Source: a bacterium (GTDB lineage Bacteria > UBP4 > UBA4092 > JAOAEQ01). Taken from it: DNA of 64,000 bases. Below, one piece after another: positions 1,441 to 9,126 of this stretch (the stretch's first letter is position 1; every line of letters begins with the position of its first letter). The stretch is from contig JAOAEQ010000010.1 of the NCBI GenBank assembly GCA_026416715.1, forward strand, positions 1-64,000, read 5' to 3'. The notes under the pieces were generated by a model. It had not been told where the DNA came from and made no database searches. It saw nothing but the letters and a program-made list of their open reading frames with translations. Made by a program: the position numbers and the translations under genes.

Positions 1441-3384
1441 ATGCGTAAATGGGTATTGTCCCTTTTTATTAGTATCGTAGCCGTTAGTTCAATTCCATCG
1501 TTTGCGGATATAATCACGTTAACCAGCGGGAAAGAACTGTTCGGTGAAATTATCTCCGAATCAAATGGACTGGTGAAAATAATGACACCGACCGGAACAT
1601 TTGCACTTAATACCGCACAAATCGCAACGATGACCAAAGAAACGATAACTGAAACGCAACTGCGCTTTGGCGATTATTATTTCGAACGGAAAGATTATTA
1701 TAAAGCGGTAACTGCATACCAGAAAGCGATAGCGGCGGATTCAACTAGTTTGATTGCTGCGGCGAAATTAGCGCAAGCGCAACAGTTTCTTAAAGATATC
1801 TGGTTAAAATCGATTGCGGATAGAATCACTGCAATAGATGAATTGGTTAAACAAGGGAATTTCAAAACCGCTTTGGAACAATATGCGGAAATTACTACGT
1901 TCGAACTCGATTCCAGCTGGATTGCGCAGGTGCAAAATAAGATGGCTGATGTGTATGTTCAGATATCAATGACTGAACCCGACCTAAATCTGCGAATAAT
2001 GTATGTCCAACAAGCGCTGGATATTTATCCCGAATCCGCTTCCGGAAACTATATGATGGGCAAATTGCTCCTTCAGCTAGGTAAACTCGACAATGCGGAA
2101 GCATACTTAGAAAAAGCGGTTAAATTCGACCCGCAATCTGCTGAAAAACGGATTACGTTAGGTAACGTATATTTACAACGGGAAAATTATTTCGGTGCAG
2201 CACAGGAATTCGAAGCCGCTAAACAGATTTCTCCAGCGCGATTCTATGAAATTAAAGATGAATTAGCGAAATCGTATTTCAAACTCGGTGAACAGAAATA
2301 TCGTGAACGGGACTATGCGGATGCGGTGAAATGGTTAGCCAAATATACGGCTACAGACCCTGCTGGGGATTGGAAACTGTATTATCGCGCGCAATATCAG
2401 CAACGTGCACAGGAAATTGACCCGAATTCACCGAAAGACCATTATACCGTAGCGTTATTCTGTATCGAAAAATCGTTGTTTGAAGAAGCAATTGCTGAAC
2501 TACAAACCGCATTGAACCTTGACCCGGGCTATGCACTCGCGCGGAGTAAACTGGTTGAAATCTATGACCGGTTTGCAACGCCGATATTTCAACAAGGAGT
2601 AACTTTTTTCAATCAGCGCAATTATGAGAACGCATTAGAGCGGTTTAGTCTGATAACAGCTAAATATCCGTTAAGTACACTCCGCCTCTCCGCTAACCAA
2701 TATATTGCGCAGGCACGAGAAGCGTTAGCGCAACAGATATACGAGCGCGCAAAAACTGATTTTAGTAAAGGGTTGATTGATAAATCGTTCTACGAACGCG
2801 CGTATGACGGGTTTAGTGAAATTGTAGAAAATTATCTGGATTATTCCGGATGGCAGAGCGCGAAACAGATGCGTGACCGAACCTTAACTGAACTCCAGCG
2901 CGCGCAATTATCGCCGGAAGATGTGCGTCAGCAGAAAATAAGAGAATTAGCAACGTATATCGATAGTATGGTCGGACCGGAAAAAGCTACCTGGCAACGA
3001 ATTATCAGTTTAGCGCAGTTTGACGCTACCGATTTTGAACGGAATATCCTCGGACTTGATGAACCAACGAAAAAAATTATCCGGCAGGAAACCGCACGAT
3101 TAGTCTATTTATTTAATAATCAATTAGATATATTATCTGAAAAATTGCAGATTCGACGTGACCGGATTCGCACCGAACGCGACCGGATTAAACGACTTGA
3201 GTTAACCTTATATATTCTCGCATGTCCCGGTGGCGATTATCCGGTCTGGATGGAAATCAAGGATTATTTCAACGGCGGTCGCGCAGAGTTTGATGAAGCG
3301 AAACCGAACTTTTCATCATTTACACAGCAACGGATTCAAGATATCGGAGTAGATGAAATATATCGGGTGCTTAACTTGAAATAA
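1441..3384 (+). CDS. secreted/periplasmic TPR-repeat protein
   Basis: This 647-residue protein starts with a signal peptide (MRKWVLSLFISIVAVSS, then a probable cut near SFA-D, residue 22). A short beta-rich segment follows (ITLTSGKELFGEI, about 25-60), typical of proteins that start with 'I.L.nG..l.G.i'. Tandem tetratricopeptide repeats then run from about 75 to 450 (for example GDYYFERKDYYKAVTAYQKA, GKLLLQLGKLDNAEAYLEKA and EEAIAELQTALNLDPGYA). The C-terminal 190 residues are charged and helical. TPR arrays act as protein-binding scaffolds in the cell envelope; no enzymatic motif is visible. The start is set by a strong ribosome site (GGAGGTAA, 7 bases before ATG). A TTGACA at 1383-1388 could be the -35 box of its own promoter, but the matching -10 is poor. 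The partner is unknown. Confidence 0.8.
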   Translation: MRKWVLSLFISIVAVSSIPSFADIITLTSGKELFGEIISESNGLVKIMTPTGTFALNTAQIATMTKETITETQLRFGDYYFERKDYYKAVTAYQKAIAADSTSLIAAAKLAQAQQFLKDIWLKSIADRITAIDELVKQGNFKTALEQYAEITTFELDSSWIAQVQNKMADVYVQISMTEPDLNLRIMYVQQALDIYPESASGNYMMGKLLLQLGKLDNAEAYLEKAVKFDPQSAEKRITLGNVYLQRENYFGAAQEFEAAKQISPARFYEIKDELAKSYFKLGEQKYRERDYADAVKWLAKYTATDPAGDWKLYYRAQYQQRAQEIDPNSPKDHYTVALFCIEKSLFEEAIAELQTALNLDPGYALARSKLVEIYDRFATPIFQQGVTFFNQRNYENALERFSLITAKYPLSTLRLSANQYIAQAREALAQQIYERAKTDFSKGLIDKSFYERAYDGFSEIVENYLDYSGWQSAKQMRDRTLTELQRAQLSPEDVRQQKIRELATYIDSMVGPEKATWQRIISLAQFDATDFERNILGLDEPTKKIIRQETARLVYLFNNQLDILSEKLQIRRDRIRTERDRIKRLELTLYILACPGGDYPVWMEIKDYFNGGRAEFDEAKPNFSSFTQQRIQDIGVDEIYRVLNLK

Positions 3385-3486: not shown

Positions 3487-3909
3487 ATGGATACTACCAA
3501 ATTCGTTAATCTCACCGCATATGCTGAACGAAAAGAAGTTATCGGTAAAGTGATAACCGTTCTTGATGCAATGGCGGAATCTCGCGGGTTATGGCTGATA
3601 TCAACCTATTCCCGTGCGGTACCGAAATACTCAATTCACGAGCTGATTCTAACTGATGAAGCCGAGCCGAAACCTGGAGAAGCGGTTAATCGCATAGCCT
3701 ATCTCTGTTTTTTTGAAGTAGCTGAAGGTGGTGTTATTCCGGTCGGAGATAAACTCTATCTCAATGACCAGTTTATCGGAACGATTAAAGGATTCGATGA
3801 AACGCATCTACCGAATCATCTGAATATTATCGTTTATGCGGAAAAACGGCAAACCGGCAAAGAATTGGGATTTACGCTCGGCGCCCAGTTATCCTTTAAA
3901 CCGAAATAG
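3487..3909 (+). CDS. conserved-looking small protein of unknown function
   Basis: I do not recognise this 140-residue protein. It starts MDTTKFVNLTAYAERKEVIG and looks cytosolic, mixed alpha/beta, with a Gly/Pro-rich middle (EPKPGEAVNRIAYLCFFEV) and an end rich in beta strands. The frame stays open back to a TTG at 3421, which would add a hydrophobic leader. That stretch has no ribosome site and contains 'gctgtaatcg', shared with the intergenic repeats at 6.3 and 12.1 kb, so the ATG at 3487 is preferred. It lies 154 bases before the PLP-enzyme gene on the same strand and may belong to that group. The spacing is wide, so co-transcription is not certain. Confidence 0.6.
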   Translation: MDTTKFVNLTAYAERKEVIGKVITVLDAMAESRGLWLISTYSRAVPKYSIHELILTDEAEPKPGEAVNRIAYLCFFEVAEGGVIPVGDKLYLNDQFIGTIKGFDETHLPNHLNIIVYAEKRQTGKELGFTLGAQLSFKPK

Positions 3910-4063
3910 AAAATATATTTCTCATTTTGATATAGTGTAATACCAAATGGTACCATCTCAATGTCAAATCAATGTCACAATGACTTGATACCGAAACTAT
4001 TTTGGTTGTTGGGTTTTGCCATTTGAAAATTAATAAATAATATTTATTTAGGAGAGAAGAATC

Positions 4064-5527
4064 ATGGCTAGTTATAAATATCGGTTTCAGATGTATAAAG
4101 AGTTACATAAACAAATCCCACAGATTTACGCTGAAGCGAAAAAATTCGCTGATGATATCGGTTTGCCACCGACATTGAAAGGGAAAATTGGGTTAACTGG
4201 TGCGGTATCGAGCTGTCATGGGTTATTAAGTCGTGAAGTGAAAGAAGCGATGGATAAAGCGAGTCGGCAAGTGATTGAAAATAAGTTTCTTGCGGAAGAA
4301 ATTCGCGAACTGGTTAAAGATGTTTACGGTGACGAATATGACGCCGCAGCGATTAATACCTGTGAAGCTGCATTATGGGTTACGTTCGATTGTTTAGCGA
4401 GTCCGCCGATGCAAGGGCGCGGTGATAATTATCAAGCGCGATATATTGCACTCTACGAACGGCATTTGCATCATCAAGGAGCGTATGGAAGACCGTTCCC
4501 ACCACGATATAAAGATATATTCGCTGATCGGGGCGTTACCGCTGGTGAACTTGGGTTCTATGGAAAACGATTAGAAAATCTCTCGACGGTTATCGTTCCG
4601 TTAGTCGGTGCAAAATATCCGGTTCATGGAATTAAAGGATACCCGGTAATATTGTTGAGTCAGGTGAATGCACAAGCGTCGTTAGAGAAAATCGAAGATG
4701 TAGCAGAGTTAAATTCCTGCTATCTCACGGCGATAACTTCGCTCGGTTATGATACGGTCGGATATGGGTACGGTACTAAAGATAAAAATGGAACGCCGGA
4801 ACTGCAAAAAGGATTATCGGTTATCGCGCGGGAGTTTAATGTTCCGTATATCATTGATAACGCGTGGGGTATCCCGTTTATCGGCGCGGATATCCGAAAA
4901 CTCGGTGGCGATGTTATGGTGTATAGTATGGATAAAGCGAGTGGCGCGCCTACCGTCGGTCTGATTATCGGAAAAGAAGATTCGATGGTGCCAATTCGAC
5001 GAGCGCTTGGGATGCATAGCGATCGTTCCGGTGCCGGTTTTGCGTATGGAAAAGCAGCGTATGTTACCAACGATCCGGGAAAAGAAGCGTTAGTCGGGCT
5101 TATTGCGACTTTAAAAATCCTGCGGGATAAACCGAAAATGATAACTGACCCGGTAGATAAACTATTTGAAATTGTTAAACAGGAATTCTCGAATATCCCG
5201 GCGAAATTCCAACCAGATCTGTTAATTAATAAAACGTATAATAGTGCTGCAGTCGAAATTAATTATGAACGGACGTGGAAAGATAACCAGATGGGAATCC
5301 CGATTTTCTCGATTGAAGATATGTATGCCGGAACGAATATTCTCCAGTCCGGATTAGCACAAATGGGGATTATCCCTACCATAGGCTACGATGCGAATAT
5401 TTTCATTTCGTTAGGATTAGGAACTCTCGATGAAGAAGGGAATTTGTTAGAAAATGAAACCCGGATTATTGTTCGCGCGTTAGTCGGATTGATTAATATC
5501 ATCTGCAAATACGCCGGAGTAGTGTAA
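4064..5527 (+). CDS. PLP-dependent enzyme, aminotransferase fold (type I), substrate unknown
   Basis: This 487-residue cytosolic enzyme has the layout of a fold-type I PLP protein. A helical N-terminal region is followed by a conserved small-residue segment (GLTGAVSSCHGLL, about 45-57). The large domain has the cofactor aspartate in IIDNAWG (about 264-270) and the probable Schiff-base lysine K291 in VYSMDKASGAPTVG. The 'S-x-D-K....P-x-V-G' context resembles SepSecS/SelA-type enzymes more than ordinary aminotransferases, but this is a comparison from memory and does not fix the reaction. The start has a good ribosome site (AGGAGAG, 7 bases upstream). RidA follows 49 bases downstream, then a small unknown and a cobalamin-binding protein. 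RidA deaminates the reactive enamine/imine products that some PLP enzymes release, so an elimination or transamination-like step is likely. Confidence 0.75.
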   Translation: MASYKYRFQMYKELHKQIPQIYAEAKKFADDIGLPPTLKGKIGLTGAVSSCHGLLSREVKEAMDKASRQVIENKFLAEEIRELVKDVYGDEYDAAAINTCEAALWVTFDCLASPPMQGRGDNYQARYIALYERHLHHQGAYGRPFPPRYKDIFADRGVTAGELGFYGKRLENLSTVIVPLVGAKYPVHGIKGYPVILLSQVNAQASLEKIEDVAELNSCYLTAITSLGYDTVGYGYGTKDKNGTPELQKGLSVIAREFNVPYIIDNAWGIPFIGADIRKLGGDVMVYSMDKASGAPTVGLIIGKEDSMVPIRRALGMHSDRSGAGFAYGKAAYVTNDPGKEALVGLIATLKILRDKPKMITDPVDKLFEIVKQEFSNIPAKFQPDLLINKTYNSAAVEINYERTWKDNQMGIPIFSIEDMYAGTNILQSGLAQMGIIPTIGYDANIFISLGLGTLDEEGNLLENETRIIVRALVGLINIICKYAGVV

Positions 5528-5576
5528 TATCATTAGTCTCTAGCCCGTAGTTCTAAGAAAAAAAGGAGTTTATTTT

Positions 5577-5960
5577 ATGGCAAGAAATGTTATCAAGACT
5601 AACCATGCACCGGAAGCGATCGGACCGTATTCGCAAGGGATACGAATCGGGCAATTTATTTATACTTCCGGCCAAATACCGATAGACCCGAAAACGAACA
5701 CGATTGTCGGTGGTGGTATCAAAAACCAAACGAAACAGGTGCTTGAAAATATTAAAGCGGTTTTAGCAGCGAGTGGCGGTACTATGCAGGATGTGGTTAA
5801 AACGACGGTATATTTAACGAATATGCTCGATTTTGCTGCAATGAATGAAGTCTATGCGACCTATTTTACTGAACCCTATCCTGCGCGAACTACCGTTCAA
5901 GTCGCTAAACTGCCGAAAGATGTTGCGATTGAAATCGATGTTGTTGCTTATCTCGGGTAA
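5577..5960 (+). CDS. ridA: RidA family enamine/imine deaminase
   Basis: At 127 residues this is the exact size of RidA (YjgF/YER057c/UK114). The family signatures are present: the N-terminal [15 protein letters not shown], the TSGQIPIDP segment, and the C-terminal [13 protein letters not shown], whose arginine (R104) binds the substrate carboxylate in characterised RidA proteins. RidA hydrolyses 2-aminoacrylate and related enamines/imines that PLP enzymes release, protecting other PLP enzymes from damage. It acts as a cytosolic trimer. The ribosome site is AAAGGAG, 8-10 bases before ATG. The position directly after a PLP enzyme suggests it processes that enzyme's product, either as a pathway step or as a safeguard. 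Confidence 0.93.
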
Positions 5961-6056
5961 CCACTAAATAACGGAACAATTTGAGAATTGAAGAAAAAAT
6001 TTAAATAGGAAATTTATATTCTTTCGTTCATCCGTTCTTACGTTATTTTCATTGTT

Positions 6057-6287
6057 ATGAACGTAAAAAATAAAATACTCGATGCAATAGATATCGAAAC
6101 ATTTTTCATCTGCCAGGATGAATTGGAAGCGAAACAGCTGGTTCAAGAGCTATTGAAAGAATTAAATCTGGAACATGGTGATATCGTTTCGCTAGAACAT
6201 AACGGGCTCGGTGCACAGGTGCGGATTCGTGTGTATATCCATCATCCGGGTTTAAAATACGCCTGGCTAGAAAAAGAAAAAGAATAA
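6057..6287 (+). CDS. small acidic protein of unknown function in the PLP/B12 group
   Basis: This predicted 76-residue soluble protein (MNVKNKILDAIDIETFFICQ...) has an alpha-beta pattern: a helix with acidic residues (ELEAKQLVQELLKELN), then strands (DIVSLEHNG, VRIRVYIHHPG). No motif is recognised. The initiation site is weak. It sits between ridA and the cobalamin-binding protein on the same strand, and codon use is like its neighbours, so it is probably a real gene. A small partner subunit for the cobalamin protein is possible by analogy with the small subunits of other B12 aminomutases. That is inference only; no sequence similarity to OraS was seen. Confidence 0.55.
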   Translation: MNVKNKILDAIDIETFFICQDELEAKQLVQELLKELNLEHGDIVSLEHNGLGAQVRIRVYIHHPGLKYAWLEKEKE

Positions 6288-6368
6288 TGATTACACCGAT
6301 TGAGTAATATTGATTACATAGATGTTAATCGCTGTAATCGTTTCTATAATCAGTGTAATCAGATTTTA
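6286..6368. repeat. short intergenic repeat, GATTACAC...GTGTAATC type
   Basis: Between two genes, the run TGATTACACCGATT is followed by TTGATTACATAGAT, CGCTGTAATCG and AATCAGTGTAATCAGAT. The outer arms (TGATTACAC and GTGTAATCA) are exact reverse complements. A diverged copy occupies about 12036-12092, and a fragment (GCTGTAATCG) precedes the gene at 3487. Such degenerate elements are common intergenic filler in several bacterial groups. No coding content or transposase is present. Confidence 0.5.
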
Positions 6369-6373
6369 GAATT

Positions 6374-8191
6374 ATGAAAGTACTCCTCGCTCCACTCGAC
6401 CCTGTCCACGATGTCGGATTGAAACTTATCAAACGTAAACTTGACGATCGTGGACATCGAACGATATTACTACCGCCGGATGTTTTTGCAGAAGAAGTCG
6501 TTGATGCGATTACATTACATCAGCCGGATGCGGTGCTAATCAGTCGAACCGTTGGATATGATGCAACAACATTACTCGGTAACCTAATGAATCTCATTAA
6601 AGCGAAAGGGTTACGTGATAAATCACGGTTTGCTATCGGCGGGATGGCAGTAACCGCAGAAATGGGTACCCAACTGGGGTATGACGCTTGTTTTCCACCA
6701 CGGACACCAATTGAAGAAGTTATTGCGTTCGTTGAACAGGCGAAAGGAGTCTCCGTTGGACTTGAACGGAAACCGAAACAGAAACGAGATTTAACCGCAG
6801 GGTTTAGTTTTACGGTTAAAGATAATGAGGTAGAAGAATTACTTAACAAAATCACTGATGCAATTATTGAATGGACGAAAGGAAAAACGTCTCCGGGAAT
6901 TAAACGTGCGCGAATAACCGAATCGCAATTAGAATCGCTTGGCGGGTCGGTCGAAAAATATACCGCACTTCCGTTCACCCGGGAATATCTAGAATTAAGC
7001 GACCAAACTATCGTTGATTTCTATCGTCAAGGGAAATTACCGGCACATACTCGGCTTATTGAACGGAAAGAAATCGAACAACTCTATACGTTAATCAAGC
7101 AGGCGAATAAAACTATCCATCCGCAAATTCTCCAGTATAAAACGGAAAAACCGGTTGTGTTTATTCAATACGGAACGGGATGTCCTATCATGGATGCGGT
7201 ACATATCAAAGTTTGCGAAGCGTGGGGAGCTGATGGCGTTTTACATTTCGACCCCGCTTGGGGCGCAAGAACGGAAGGACTGCCTGACGGTTATCTCGCA
7301 GACGCAGTTGATGGGACTCCAATAACCTACGCCAATTTAAGTTTGATTAAAGATTCGTTATTACCGTCAACTCTATGGTCAGTTCGAGCGCATCGTGGAT
7401 TGAATACTCCGGAAATAATTGTTCTCGCCGGGTTCCTCGGTGCGGATTTAACCAAAATAAATATTGCGTACGGTTCGTTAGGAGCGGGAACCGACCCCGC
7501 ACGGTTGACCGTTGACGGCGTTGAATCGTTACGACTTGCCGCAAAATATCATATGCCGTTCGACATCCCGACTAATGAAGAGTTATGTGGTGTTCCGGCA
7601 TATAAAGCGTTCGCGGGGATGCTGATTATGGCTGCGCTCGGGTTGAAACTTGGTGCGAAACCGTTATTGAAACCGCTCATCTGTTATTCGCCGGAAATGA
7701 TTATCAGCGGTAAAATGGAACAGAATTATGTTGATTATAACACCGCGAAAATTCTCGCGTTGCGTGAACTCGTTGATATCCCGATTTGGGCTGGTGAACC
7801 TATCGGATTTATGACCCATACCGAAGAGAAAGTACAGTCTGCTAGTGCAACGGCATATCATTTTTCGTTAATGGCAGGGTTAGGAGTTGACGTTGCGACT
7901 ATCGCATCAACAGATGAAGTTTATTCTCGCGGACCGATAACCGGTATCGGGCGGATCGGAACGTTGAACGCCGTTAAAGAATCGTTCCGCTTCTTCGGGG
8001 GAACGAAAATGCTTCCGTCTGACCAGGCACTCCAATGGAAAGATGAACTGAAATCGAATATTAAAGAAACGTTGAAACAGGTTGCTAATGCTCCGTCATT
8101 TGTTGATGCGCTTTACGCCGGTATCCTCGGTAGTAAAGAAGACGGCGCTTATCCCGGTCGGTTTGGAAAAAATACTGTGACCTTGATATAG
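6374..8191 (+). CDS. cobalamin-binding, TIM-barrel-like protein (possible B12 mutase/aminomutase-like enzyme)
   Basis: This 605-residue protein has two parts. Residues 1-125 form a Rossmann-like B12-binding module: the loop LDPVHDVG supplies the candidate cobalt ligand H12 and G15 of the D-x-H-x-x-G motif, although the aspartate position is a proline (P10, with D9 next to it). The usual later features follow (VLISRTVGYDA, then AIGGMAV for the GG loop, and a C-terminal PPRTPIEEVI helix start). Residues 190-580 read as an alpha/beta barrel with glycine-rich loops (IQYGTGCPIMDAVHIKV, GSLGAGTDPARLT, GEPIGFMTHTEEKVQSASAT). The order (B12 domain first) differs from OraE/KamE, and the barrel is not one I can name. 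By context it probably catalyses a radical rearrangement in the same pathway as the upstream PLP enzyme. The substrate is unknown. Confidence 0.7.
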   Translation: MKVLLAPLDPVHDVGLKLIKRKLDDRGHRTILLPPDVFAEEVVDAITLHQPDAVLISRTVGYDATTLLGNLMNLIKAKGLRDKSRFAIGGMAVTAEMGTQLGYDACFPPRTPIEEVIAFVEQAKGVSVGLERKPKQKRDLTAGFSFTVKDNEVEELLNKITDAIIEWTKGKTSPGIKRARITESQLESLGGSVEKYTALPFTREYLELSDQTIVDFYRQGKLPAHTRLIERKEIEQLYTLIKQANKTIHPQILQYKTEKPVVFIQYGTGCPIMDAVHIKVCEAWGADGVLHFDPAWGARTEGLPDGYLADAVDGTPITYANLSLIKDSLLPSTLWSVRAHRGLNTPEIIVLAGFLGADLTKINIAYGSLGAGTDPARLTVDGVESLRLAAKYHMPFDIPTNEELCGVPAYKAFAGMLIMAALGLKLGAKPLLKPLICYSPEMIISGKMEQNYVDYNTAKILALRELVDIPIWAGEPIGFMTHTEEKVQSASATAYHFSLMAGLGVDVATIASTDEVYSRGPITGIGRIGTLNAVKESFRFFGGTKMLPSDQALQWKDELKSNIKETLKQVANAPSFVDALYAGILGSKEDGAYPGRFGKNTVTLI

Positions 8192-8301: not shown

Positions 8302-9126
8302 TTATTTTGCTTTTCGCTCTTCTTCGAGTCGTTTTCTACCATCTTCGAAAAACGGTTCCGCGAATTCAGAATCCCAGGTTCGCTCTTCAAACGTCCGATT
8401 GGTAACGGTGTTCAGGAACCGGTCGAAATCGGCAAAATAACTGCCGTAAATATGGAAACTATCCGCAATATCAACATACCGACCGACTTTAACCTCTTGA
8501 TTGATCCTATCGCTGATTTGGCTCGCGATTCGTTTCTGCAAATCTGTTAATGCGAAAATGTTCATAAACGCAGCTTTATATCCATCTCGGGAACGCCAAT
8601 GCGTATTCATATTTAGAACCGGGATACCAGATTCATTGGGTAATAACCGACACCAGACACGCTGTAAACATGGCGGATCTTCAGTTGGCGGGTCGGTTAA
8701 TACGTTCCAGGTTATCGCTTGCGCTCGACGGGAATATCCCGCTTCTGATAGTTTTTTAACGATATACTCAATCTGATTAATTACTTTCCCACCGATTTTA
8801 TAATTGAATAACCGTTCGTGGTAAGTATACGTCCATTTCCCTTCTTCCGGTTTAATCCAATGGTCATGCACTCCTTCAACTACTTCCTGCCGATATATTT
8901 CTAAATCTTCTAATCCCGCAGGAAACGACCGATGGATTCGTGGTTCTTTAAACGGGTCGAGACAAACCATAACCATGGTACAATCGCGACTTGGCGGGTC
9001 GTCCGGCTTATCATATTCAGTTTTAATCGCAACGCCTTGCTCCCAACAAGCTAGTACCGCTTTCTCCCATGTTTCTGGTAACGTCTCTCCTTGAACCATT
9101 AAAACAGGTATATTCCCATTTTGCAT
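8302..9126 (-). CDS. thymidylate synthase-like protein (divergent family member)
   Basis: This 274-residue protein carries spaced remnants of the thymidylate synthase/dCMP hydroxymethylase signature. The probable nucleophile is C153 in EDPPCLQRVW, matching the PPCH/PPCL loop of thymidylate synthases. THWRSRDGYKAAFMNIFAL (about 175-193) corresponds to the RSxDxxLGxPFN segment, and DSFHIYG (222-228) to the DxHxY nucleotide-binding motif. The N-terminal third is unlike classical ThyA and closer in style to archaeal-type synthases. The family transfers a one-carbon unit from methylenetetrahydrofolate to C5 of a pyrimidine monophosphate. Whether this protein makes dTMP or acts on another pyrimidine cannot be told. 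It stands alone, divergent from the next gene, with no folate gene nearby. Confidence 0.7.
   Translation of the reverse strand: MQNGNIPVLMVQGETLPETWEKAVLACWEQGVAIKTEYDKPDDPPSRDCTMVMVCLDPFKEPRIHRSFPAGLEDLEIYRQEVVEGVHDHWIKPEEGKWTYTYHERLFNYKIGGKVINQIEYIVKKLSEAGYSRRAQAITWNVLTDPPTEDPPCLQRVWCRLLPNESGIPVLNMNTHWRSRDGYKAAFMNIFALTDLQKRIASQISDRINQEVKVGRYVDIADSFHIYGSYFADFDRFLNTVTNRTFEERTWDSEFAEPFFEDGRKRLEEERKAK

Follow-up and report, generated by a model that had tools for sequence, protein, structure and literature searches.

A conserved bacterial gene group with a putative B12-dependent mutase related to lysine 5,6-aminomutase, a separate PLP enzyme, and RidA

Lysine 5,6-aminomutase (KamD/KamE) and D-ornithine 4,5-aminomutase (OraS/OraE) use pyridoxal phosphate (PLP) and B12 on one complex, and KamB is the reactivase named for the former. 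KamD is similar to OraS in its N-terminal region, and the lysine that forms the Schiff base with PLP (Lys144-beta / Lys629) sits 11 residues after the base-off His. To our knowledge, few types of B12-dependent radical mutase have been characterized. Here, we describe a gene group at positions 3487-8191 of a 64,000-nt stretch of contig JAOAEQ010000010.1 (assembly GCA_026416715.1; hereafter, the window) from a bacterium of UBP4. An initial annotation of the window had placed five plus-strand open reading frames (ORFs) here, all of which are present in the ORF list; they code for a DUF6917 protein, a PLP enzyme, a RidA protein, a 76-residue protein, and a B12 protein. We propose that the last two probably form a radical mutase or eliminase that uses adenosylcobalamin (AdoCbl) and belongs to the lysine 5,6-aminomutase superfamily, with the PLP enzyme and RidA catalyzing separate steps.

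Architecture and cofactor site of the B12 enzyme

A scan of Pfam and NCBIfam models located a B12-binding domain at the N-terminus of the 605-residue protein (E = 6.8e-11). In a profile search of the PDB, this Rossmann domain matched the beta subunit of lysine 5,6-aminomutase (8.5e-19), and also ornithine aminomutase. When an AlphaFold2 model of the protein (mean predicted local distance difference test score 86, predicted template modeling score (pTM) 0.77) was used in a Foldseek search, the top match was the alpha subunit of lysine 5,6-aminomutase (1xrs_A, E = 2.5e-17, template modeling scores 0.54/0.62), followed by ornithine aminomutase and then by acyl-CoA mutases. The two proteins were also compared by hhalign with KamD, KamE, and OraE sequences taken from genomes, and with ten unrelated families as controls. 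Residues 155-591 of the B12 protein aligned with residues 17-488 of KamD with an E-value of 1.2e-5 (unrelated controls, 0.008 or worse). The family of the 76-residue protein, for which no match was found in the Pfam/NCBIfam scan, could be aligned to KamE's N-terminal domain (1.9e-6) and to the corresponding part of OraE (1.2e-3), whereas no unrelated control gave an E-value under 0.089. Because of the KamD, Rossmann, and KamE N-terminal matches, the two proteins can be read as three parts of KamD/KamE, permuted and split otherwise. Judging from these alignments, the 76-residue protein, which the initial annotation had set apart as a separate unknown, probably belongs to the B12 enzyme. The possibility that it is OraS was ruled out by its match to the KamE N-terminal domain and the lack of any match to KamD.

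Together, the 76-residue and B12 proteins would have the architecture (KamE N-terminal domain) + (B12 Rossmann domain)-(TIM barrel). They share with lysine 5,6-aminomutase the triosephosphate isomerase (TIM) barrel fold, the KamE-type B12 Rossmann domain, the KamE N-terminal domain, the stacking Tyr263, and, in most relatives of the cluster, a KamB neighbor. Unlike in lysine 5,6-aminomutase, the Rossmann domain is fused ahead of the barrel rather than being carried by the second subunit, the N-terminal domain is a protein of its own, the PLP lysine and most PLP contacts are gone, and the operon contains a separate PLP enzyme and RidA. OraE is likewise one large protein with a barrel and a Rossmann domain, and has an internal domain equivalent to the 76-residue protein; however, its barrel comes first, the reverse of the order found here, the 76-residue protein is not OraS-like, and the PLP lysine of OraE, Lys629, is absent from our B12 protein. 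The initial annotation had described the B12 protein as akin to PLP/B12 aminomutases but with another domain order, and the structural and profile matches, together with the N-terminal position of the Rossmann domain, agree with this description.

In lysine 5,6-aminomutase, PLP is contacted by Arg184, Ser189, Ser238, Tyr263, Arg268, and Asn299 (PMC3958899). The KamD sequences used for comparison carry S189, S238, Y263, and D298 at the listed contact positions. In a profile alignment with KamD, the B12 protein retains one of the seven PLP-holding residues: Tyr263, which corresponds to Y366 and is found in all 49 family members across which invariance was read. Ser238 is replaced by R341 and Arg268 by A/G371, and the phosphate loop 184-189 is deleted; the position of Lys144-beta (H12+11) is L23, occupied by Leu in 45 of the 49 sequences and by Phe in the other 4. 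The alignment is good near Y366, fair near R341, and poor near Asn299. By this alignment, the known PLP site of lysine 5,6-aminomutase is not kept in the B12 protein, and we therefore do not claim its membership of the aminomutase families; the protein would work like a B12 radical mutase. It also misses the NCBIfam equivalog cut-offs (Lys_5_6_beta, 41 of 280 bits; OraE, 25.5 of 800 bits). The earlier suggestion of one protein for each cofactor would be consistent with the loss of the PLP contacts. Three lysines, K361, K411, and K459, and the barrel residues R299, R338, H340, R341, and R377 are invariant in the family; K361 is located five residues before the conserved stacking Tyr. As judged from these Arg/His residues and from the missing PLP contacts, the mutase substrate would be an amino acid bearing multiple charged groups.

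Distribution and composition of the cluster

In a scan that used one genome per species, the cluster was found in Heliobacterium chlorum, H. mobile, and one Bacillota metagenome-assembled genome. The sole other genome examined from the window's phylum (a sister genome) also carries it. In the phylum of Heliobacterium, the cluster is present in 39 of 398 sampled genomes (~10%), in a third phylum in 10 of 103 genomes, all from one family, and in a fourth phylum in a single genome; a broad draw of 383 genomes contained just four. Thus, the cluster is rare, yet scattered over at least four bacterial phyla. Since dozens of genomes from other phyla have these genes side by side, chance neighbors or a genome-specific group can be rejected, which bears out the initial view of a conserved system without a named pathway. 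Among the papers listed by searches of open-licence literature, none describes this gene set, and no paper with DUF6917 was found.

Neighborhood counts were taken over 41 loci fetched with their surroundings, and conserved co-location with ridA and the 76-residue gene, proposed as a check in the initial annotation, was found across several phyla. The genes of the window recur as listed in Table 1. The B12 gene is adjoined by a KamB-type ATPase gene in 37 loci; an FAD (flavin adenine dinucleotide) oxidoreductase is encoded in 31, an FCD-type regulator in 30, and a permease in 17. Beyond the gene set proposed earlier, the wider system includes the KamB reactivase, FAD oxidoreductase, permease, regulator, and, in one phylum, DapF. 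The Heliobacterium gene that follows the B12 gene scores 197 bits against the KamB model NF052386 (E = 3.9e-58), slightly under the cut-off of 210. When matrices of pairwise identity were compared, the B12 protein correlated with each other core member at r = 0.76-0.91, with none of 500 permutations as high; the matrices of the B12, PLP, 76-residue, KamB, and FAD proteins agreed among themselves at r = 0.64-0.91.

Table 1. Genes of the group in the window and their occurrence among the 41 loci
Product	Position	Strand	Basis of assignment	Loci (of 41)
DUF6917 protein, 140 aa, core member	3487..3909	+	PF21891, E 2.4e-45; fused to RidA in L058	38
Fold-type I PLP enzyme, 487 aa, unnamed family distantly like SelA/Cap15/SepCysS	4064..5527	+	Foldseek, invariant D265/K291	39
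RidA imine/enamine deaminase, canonical subfamily, 127 aa	5577..5960	+	TIGR00004, 183.5 bits, cut-off 106.25	26 (both RidA subfamilies)
76-aa putative subunit matching KamE N-terminal domain	6057..6287	+	hhalign	40
B12 protein, 605 aa: Rossmann domain ~1-122, KamD-like TIM barrel ~150-600	6374..8191	+	PF02310, PDB profile, Foldseek, hhalign	

The next downstream gene, 8302-9126 (-), runs divergently, and the group thus ends before it. Its product is thymidylate-synthase-like, the nearest model being the methanogen-type TIGR03283 (113 bits, cut-off 174.55), which is odd in a bacterial genome. Immediately upstream of the DUF6917 gene, 1441-3384 (+) codes for a 647-residue tetratricopeptide repeat (TPR) protein. 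A similar-looking protein occupies this position in the sister genome (L070, 4600-6570), and may link the TPR protein to the cluster within the window's phylum. The housekeeping genes around the Bacillota loci were considered uninformative. At Rfam gathering scores, no lysine or cobalamin riboswitch was found in the window or in 14 related loci; L063 has a T-box and L051 has tRNAs, and nothing else matched.

Three genomes contain two copies of the B12-protein gene: G362 (L065, L082), G138 (L073, L081), and G097 (L069, L077). The second copy of G362 (L082) is accompanied by RidA, the 76-residue gene, and KamB, with no PLP or DUF6917 gene at the locus. H. chlorum encodes two further FAD oxidoreductases, L089 8932-10251 (-) and L090 8852-10150 (-), that are 59-70% identical to that of the cluster; the former adjoins an FCD regulator from the same family, and neither paralogue gave a clue to the substrate. 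The FAD oxidoreductase family (L003 4899-6185 (+)) has a cysteine-rich stretch, CGKYGNGCAMCIYRC, that by eye resembles an iron-sulfur site.

PLP enzyme, RidA, and DapF

The Pfam/NCBIfam scan gave weak similarity of the 487-residue protein to SelA, DgaE (D-glucosaminate-6-phosphate ammonia-lyase), and cysteine desulfurases. Its AlphaFold2 model (pTM 0.87) had Cap15 as the best Foldseek match (8t7j, 2.8e-13), with SelA and SepCysS also found. The presumed Asp for the pyridine nitrogen (D265) and Lys for the Schiff base (K291) do not vary in any of the 22 sequences compared, and together with the Foldseek matches support the assignment to fold-type I. This distant similarity is shared with DgaE, SelA, and Cap15; unlike them, the protein falls far under the family cut-offs (27 bits vs 385), is ~100 residues longer, and has invariant motifs of its own, TCEA and HHxxYGRP. 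By analogy, it may plausibly carry out a DgaE-like ammonia elimination, generating an enamine for RidA.

The initial annotation had included RidA in the set, and its slot is indeed filled by two different RidA subfamilies in different lineages. The window and its sister genome have a canonical RidA, while 24 other loci have a divergent one (PF14588/PF01042), only ~25% identical, in the same slot. Separate recruitment of two subfamilies into the same operon suggests that imine/enamine hydrolysis is needed and that this activity was selected for. In L082 and L088, RidA is found with the 76-residue, B12, and KamB genes though no PLP or DUF6917 gene is at the locus, and RidA is thereby tied to the B12 step. 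L058 has DUF6917 and RidA joined in a single 302-residue ORF. While the window's protein is a canonical member of the Rid family, in descriptions of Rid proteins we found no clustering with a B12 mutase.

Gene order was read in eight loci of the third phylum. In all eight, which come from several genera and change in other gene content, DapF is encoded in the operon: between the permease and the 76-residue/B12 genes in seven, and after the PLP gene in G835. The operon DapF is the only DapF of those genomes; it scores 231-257 bits against TIGR00652 (cut-off 114.65) and keeps the CGNG and ACGTG motifs with the two catalytic Cys. The G589 operon additionally contains diaminopimelate dehydrogenase (289.6 bits, cut-off 180.6; homologues are present in G842 and G843), a fused tripartite ATP-independent periplasmic (TRAP) permease, an FAD amino-acid oxidase-like protein, a dicarboxylate/glutamate-type symporter, and an Asp/Glu racemase-like gene, named from sequence alone. 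L073, a Bacillota locus, has a DapF gene beside the cluster; in most loci of the Bacillota there is none nearby. Next to L069 lies a TRAP permease gene. Because DapF is in the operon of one whole bacterial family, and diaminopimelate dehydrogenase in three of its members, diaminopimelate or a close analogue is the best-supported candidate substrate; the identification of the substrate as diaminopimelate, a close analogue, or a similar acidic amino acid is tentative, with diaminopimelate itself less likely than not. No paper on diaminopimelate catabolism was found in open-licence literature with the phrases used.

Proposed pathway and alternatives

In the pathway we propose, an epimerised amino acid would undergo B12-dependent radical rearrangement or elimination by the 76-residue and B12 proteins, which KamB would keep active in most relatives. 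RidA would hydrolyze imine or enamine intermediates, whose source could be the PLP enzyme, the FAD oxidoreductase, or the mutase itself; the PLP enzyme, with DUF6917, would carry out a later, second step, and the FAD oxidoreductase, where present, would accept electrons. We infer the order and chemistry of these steps, as was the case for the initial annotation, in which a PLP step produced a reactive enamine or imine and a B12 step rearranged carbon or nitrogen. The most complete version, an anaerobic pathway for diaminopimelate from bacterial cell walls in which a third KamD-fold B12 mutase has lost its PLP, PLP chemistry has passed to a separate dedicated enzyme, and imine hydrolysis by RidA is obligatory, is unlikely to hold in every part.

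Several observations weigh against the proposed mutase and its substrate. The KamD match is weak at the sequence level (hhalign probability 81%), and the DxHxxG motif is altered, with Asp at H-3 rather than H-2 (D9-P-V-H12; His in 49 and Gly in 41 of 49 sequences). The co-inheritance correlations are partly caused by common species descent. KamB was not found in the window's genome in a search that had no positive control, and the window's enzyme may do without it; only short, weak FAD-domain matches were obtained in that genome. The diaminopimelate link rests on one genome family and one Bacillota locus, and a sole-copy DapF may merely serve lysine or cell-wall biosynthesis.

The B12 protein could instead belong to a true PLP and B12 aminomutase whose barrel binds PLP via other residues (e.g., K361) and shifts an amino group on a diamino acid, in which case the separate PLP enzyme would act downstream like the thiolase of ornithine fermentation. 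The fold and nearest relatives, the conserved Y366, the three invariant lysines, and a reactivase named for lysine 5,6-aminomutase are all consistent with this, but the loss of the Schiff-base lysine (L23, or Phe in 4 of 49), the R341 and A/G371 replacements, and the deleted phosphate loop make it improbable. Those same losses, the invariant Arg/His cluster, the racemase-like gene, symporter, and fused TRAP permease of G589, and the TRAP permease beside L069 would suit a PLP-independent carbon-skeleton mutase or ammonia-lyase for glutamate or another acidic amino acid, built on the KamD fold but working in the manner of glutamate mutase or ethanolamine ammonia-lyase. We doubt this reading as well, since the 50 best Foldseek matches, headed by lysine and ornithine aminomutases, do not include the barrel subunit of glutamate mutase, and the adjacent reactivase is of the KamB family.

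As to the substrate, there is close to an even chance that it is not diaminopimelate: DapF and diaminopimelate dehydrogenase could be in the operon for biosynthetic co-regulation, while a different amino acid, be it branched-chain, basic, or non-protein, is what the pathway breaks down. The single copy of DapF, its absence near most Bacillota loci, and the variation of the remaining neighbors, such as a leucine-dehydrogenase-like gene (by eye) downstream in L072, argue for this. Yet DapF stays within the operon in eight of eight genomes despite the changing gene content, and its association with diaminopimelate dehydrogenase, transporters, and FAD oxidoreductases in a catabolic-looking operon is unusual for biosynthesis.

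With the gene group described here, the B12 aminomutase kind would gain a further variant, inside a pathway for which we found no description in the literature. A further branch that spans phyla, is served by a reactivase of its own, has its parts permuted and split, and seems to have lost its PLP site would reveal how PLP/B12 aminomutases evolved, and several gene families so far without a name would be assigned together. If diaminopimelate is the substrate, the pathway would allow anaerobes to draw on the cell walls of dead bacteria, which make up a large pool of nitrogen in sludge and sediments. The Heliobacterium operon makes the question directly testable.

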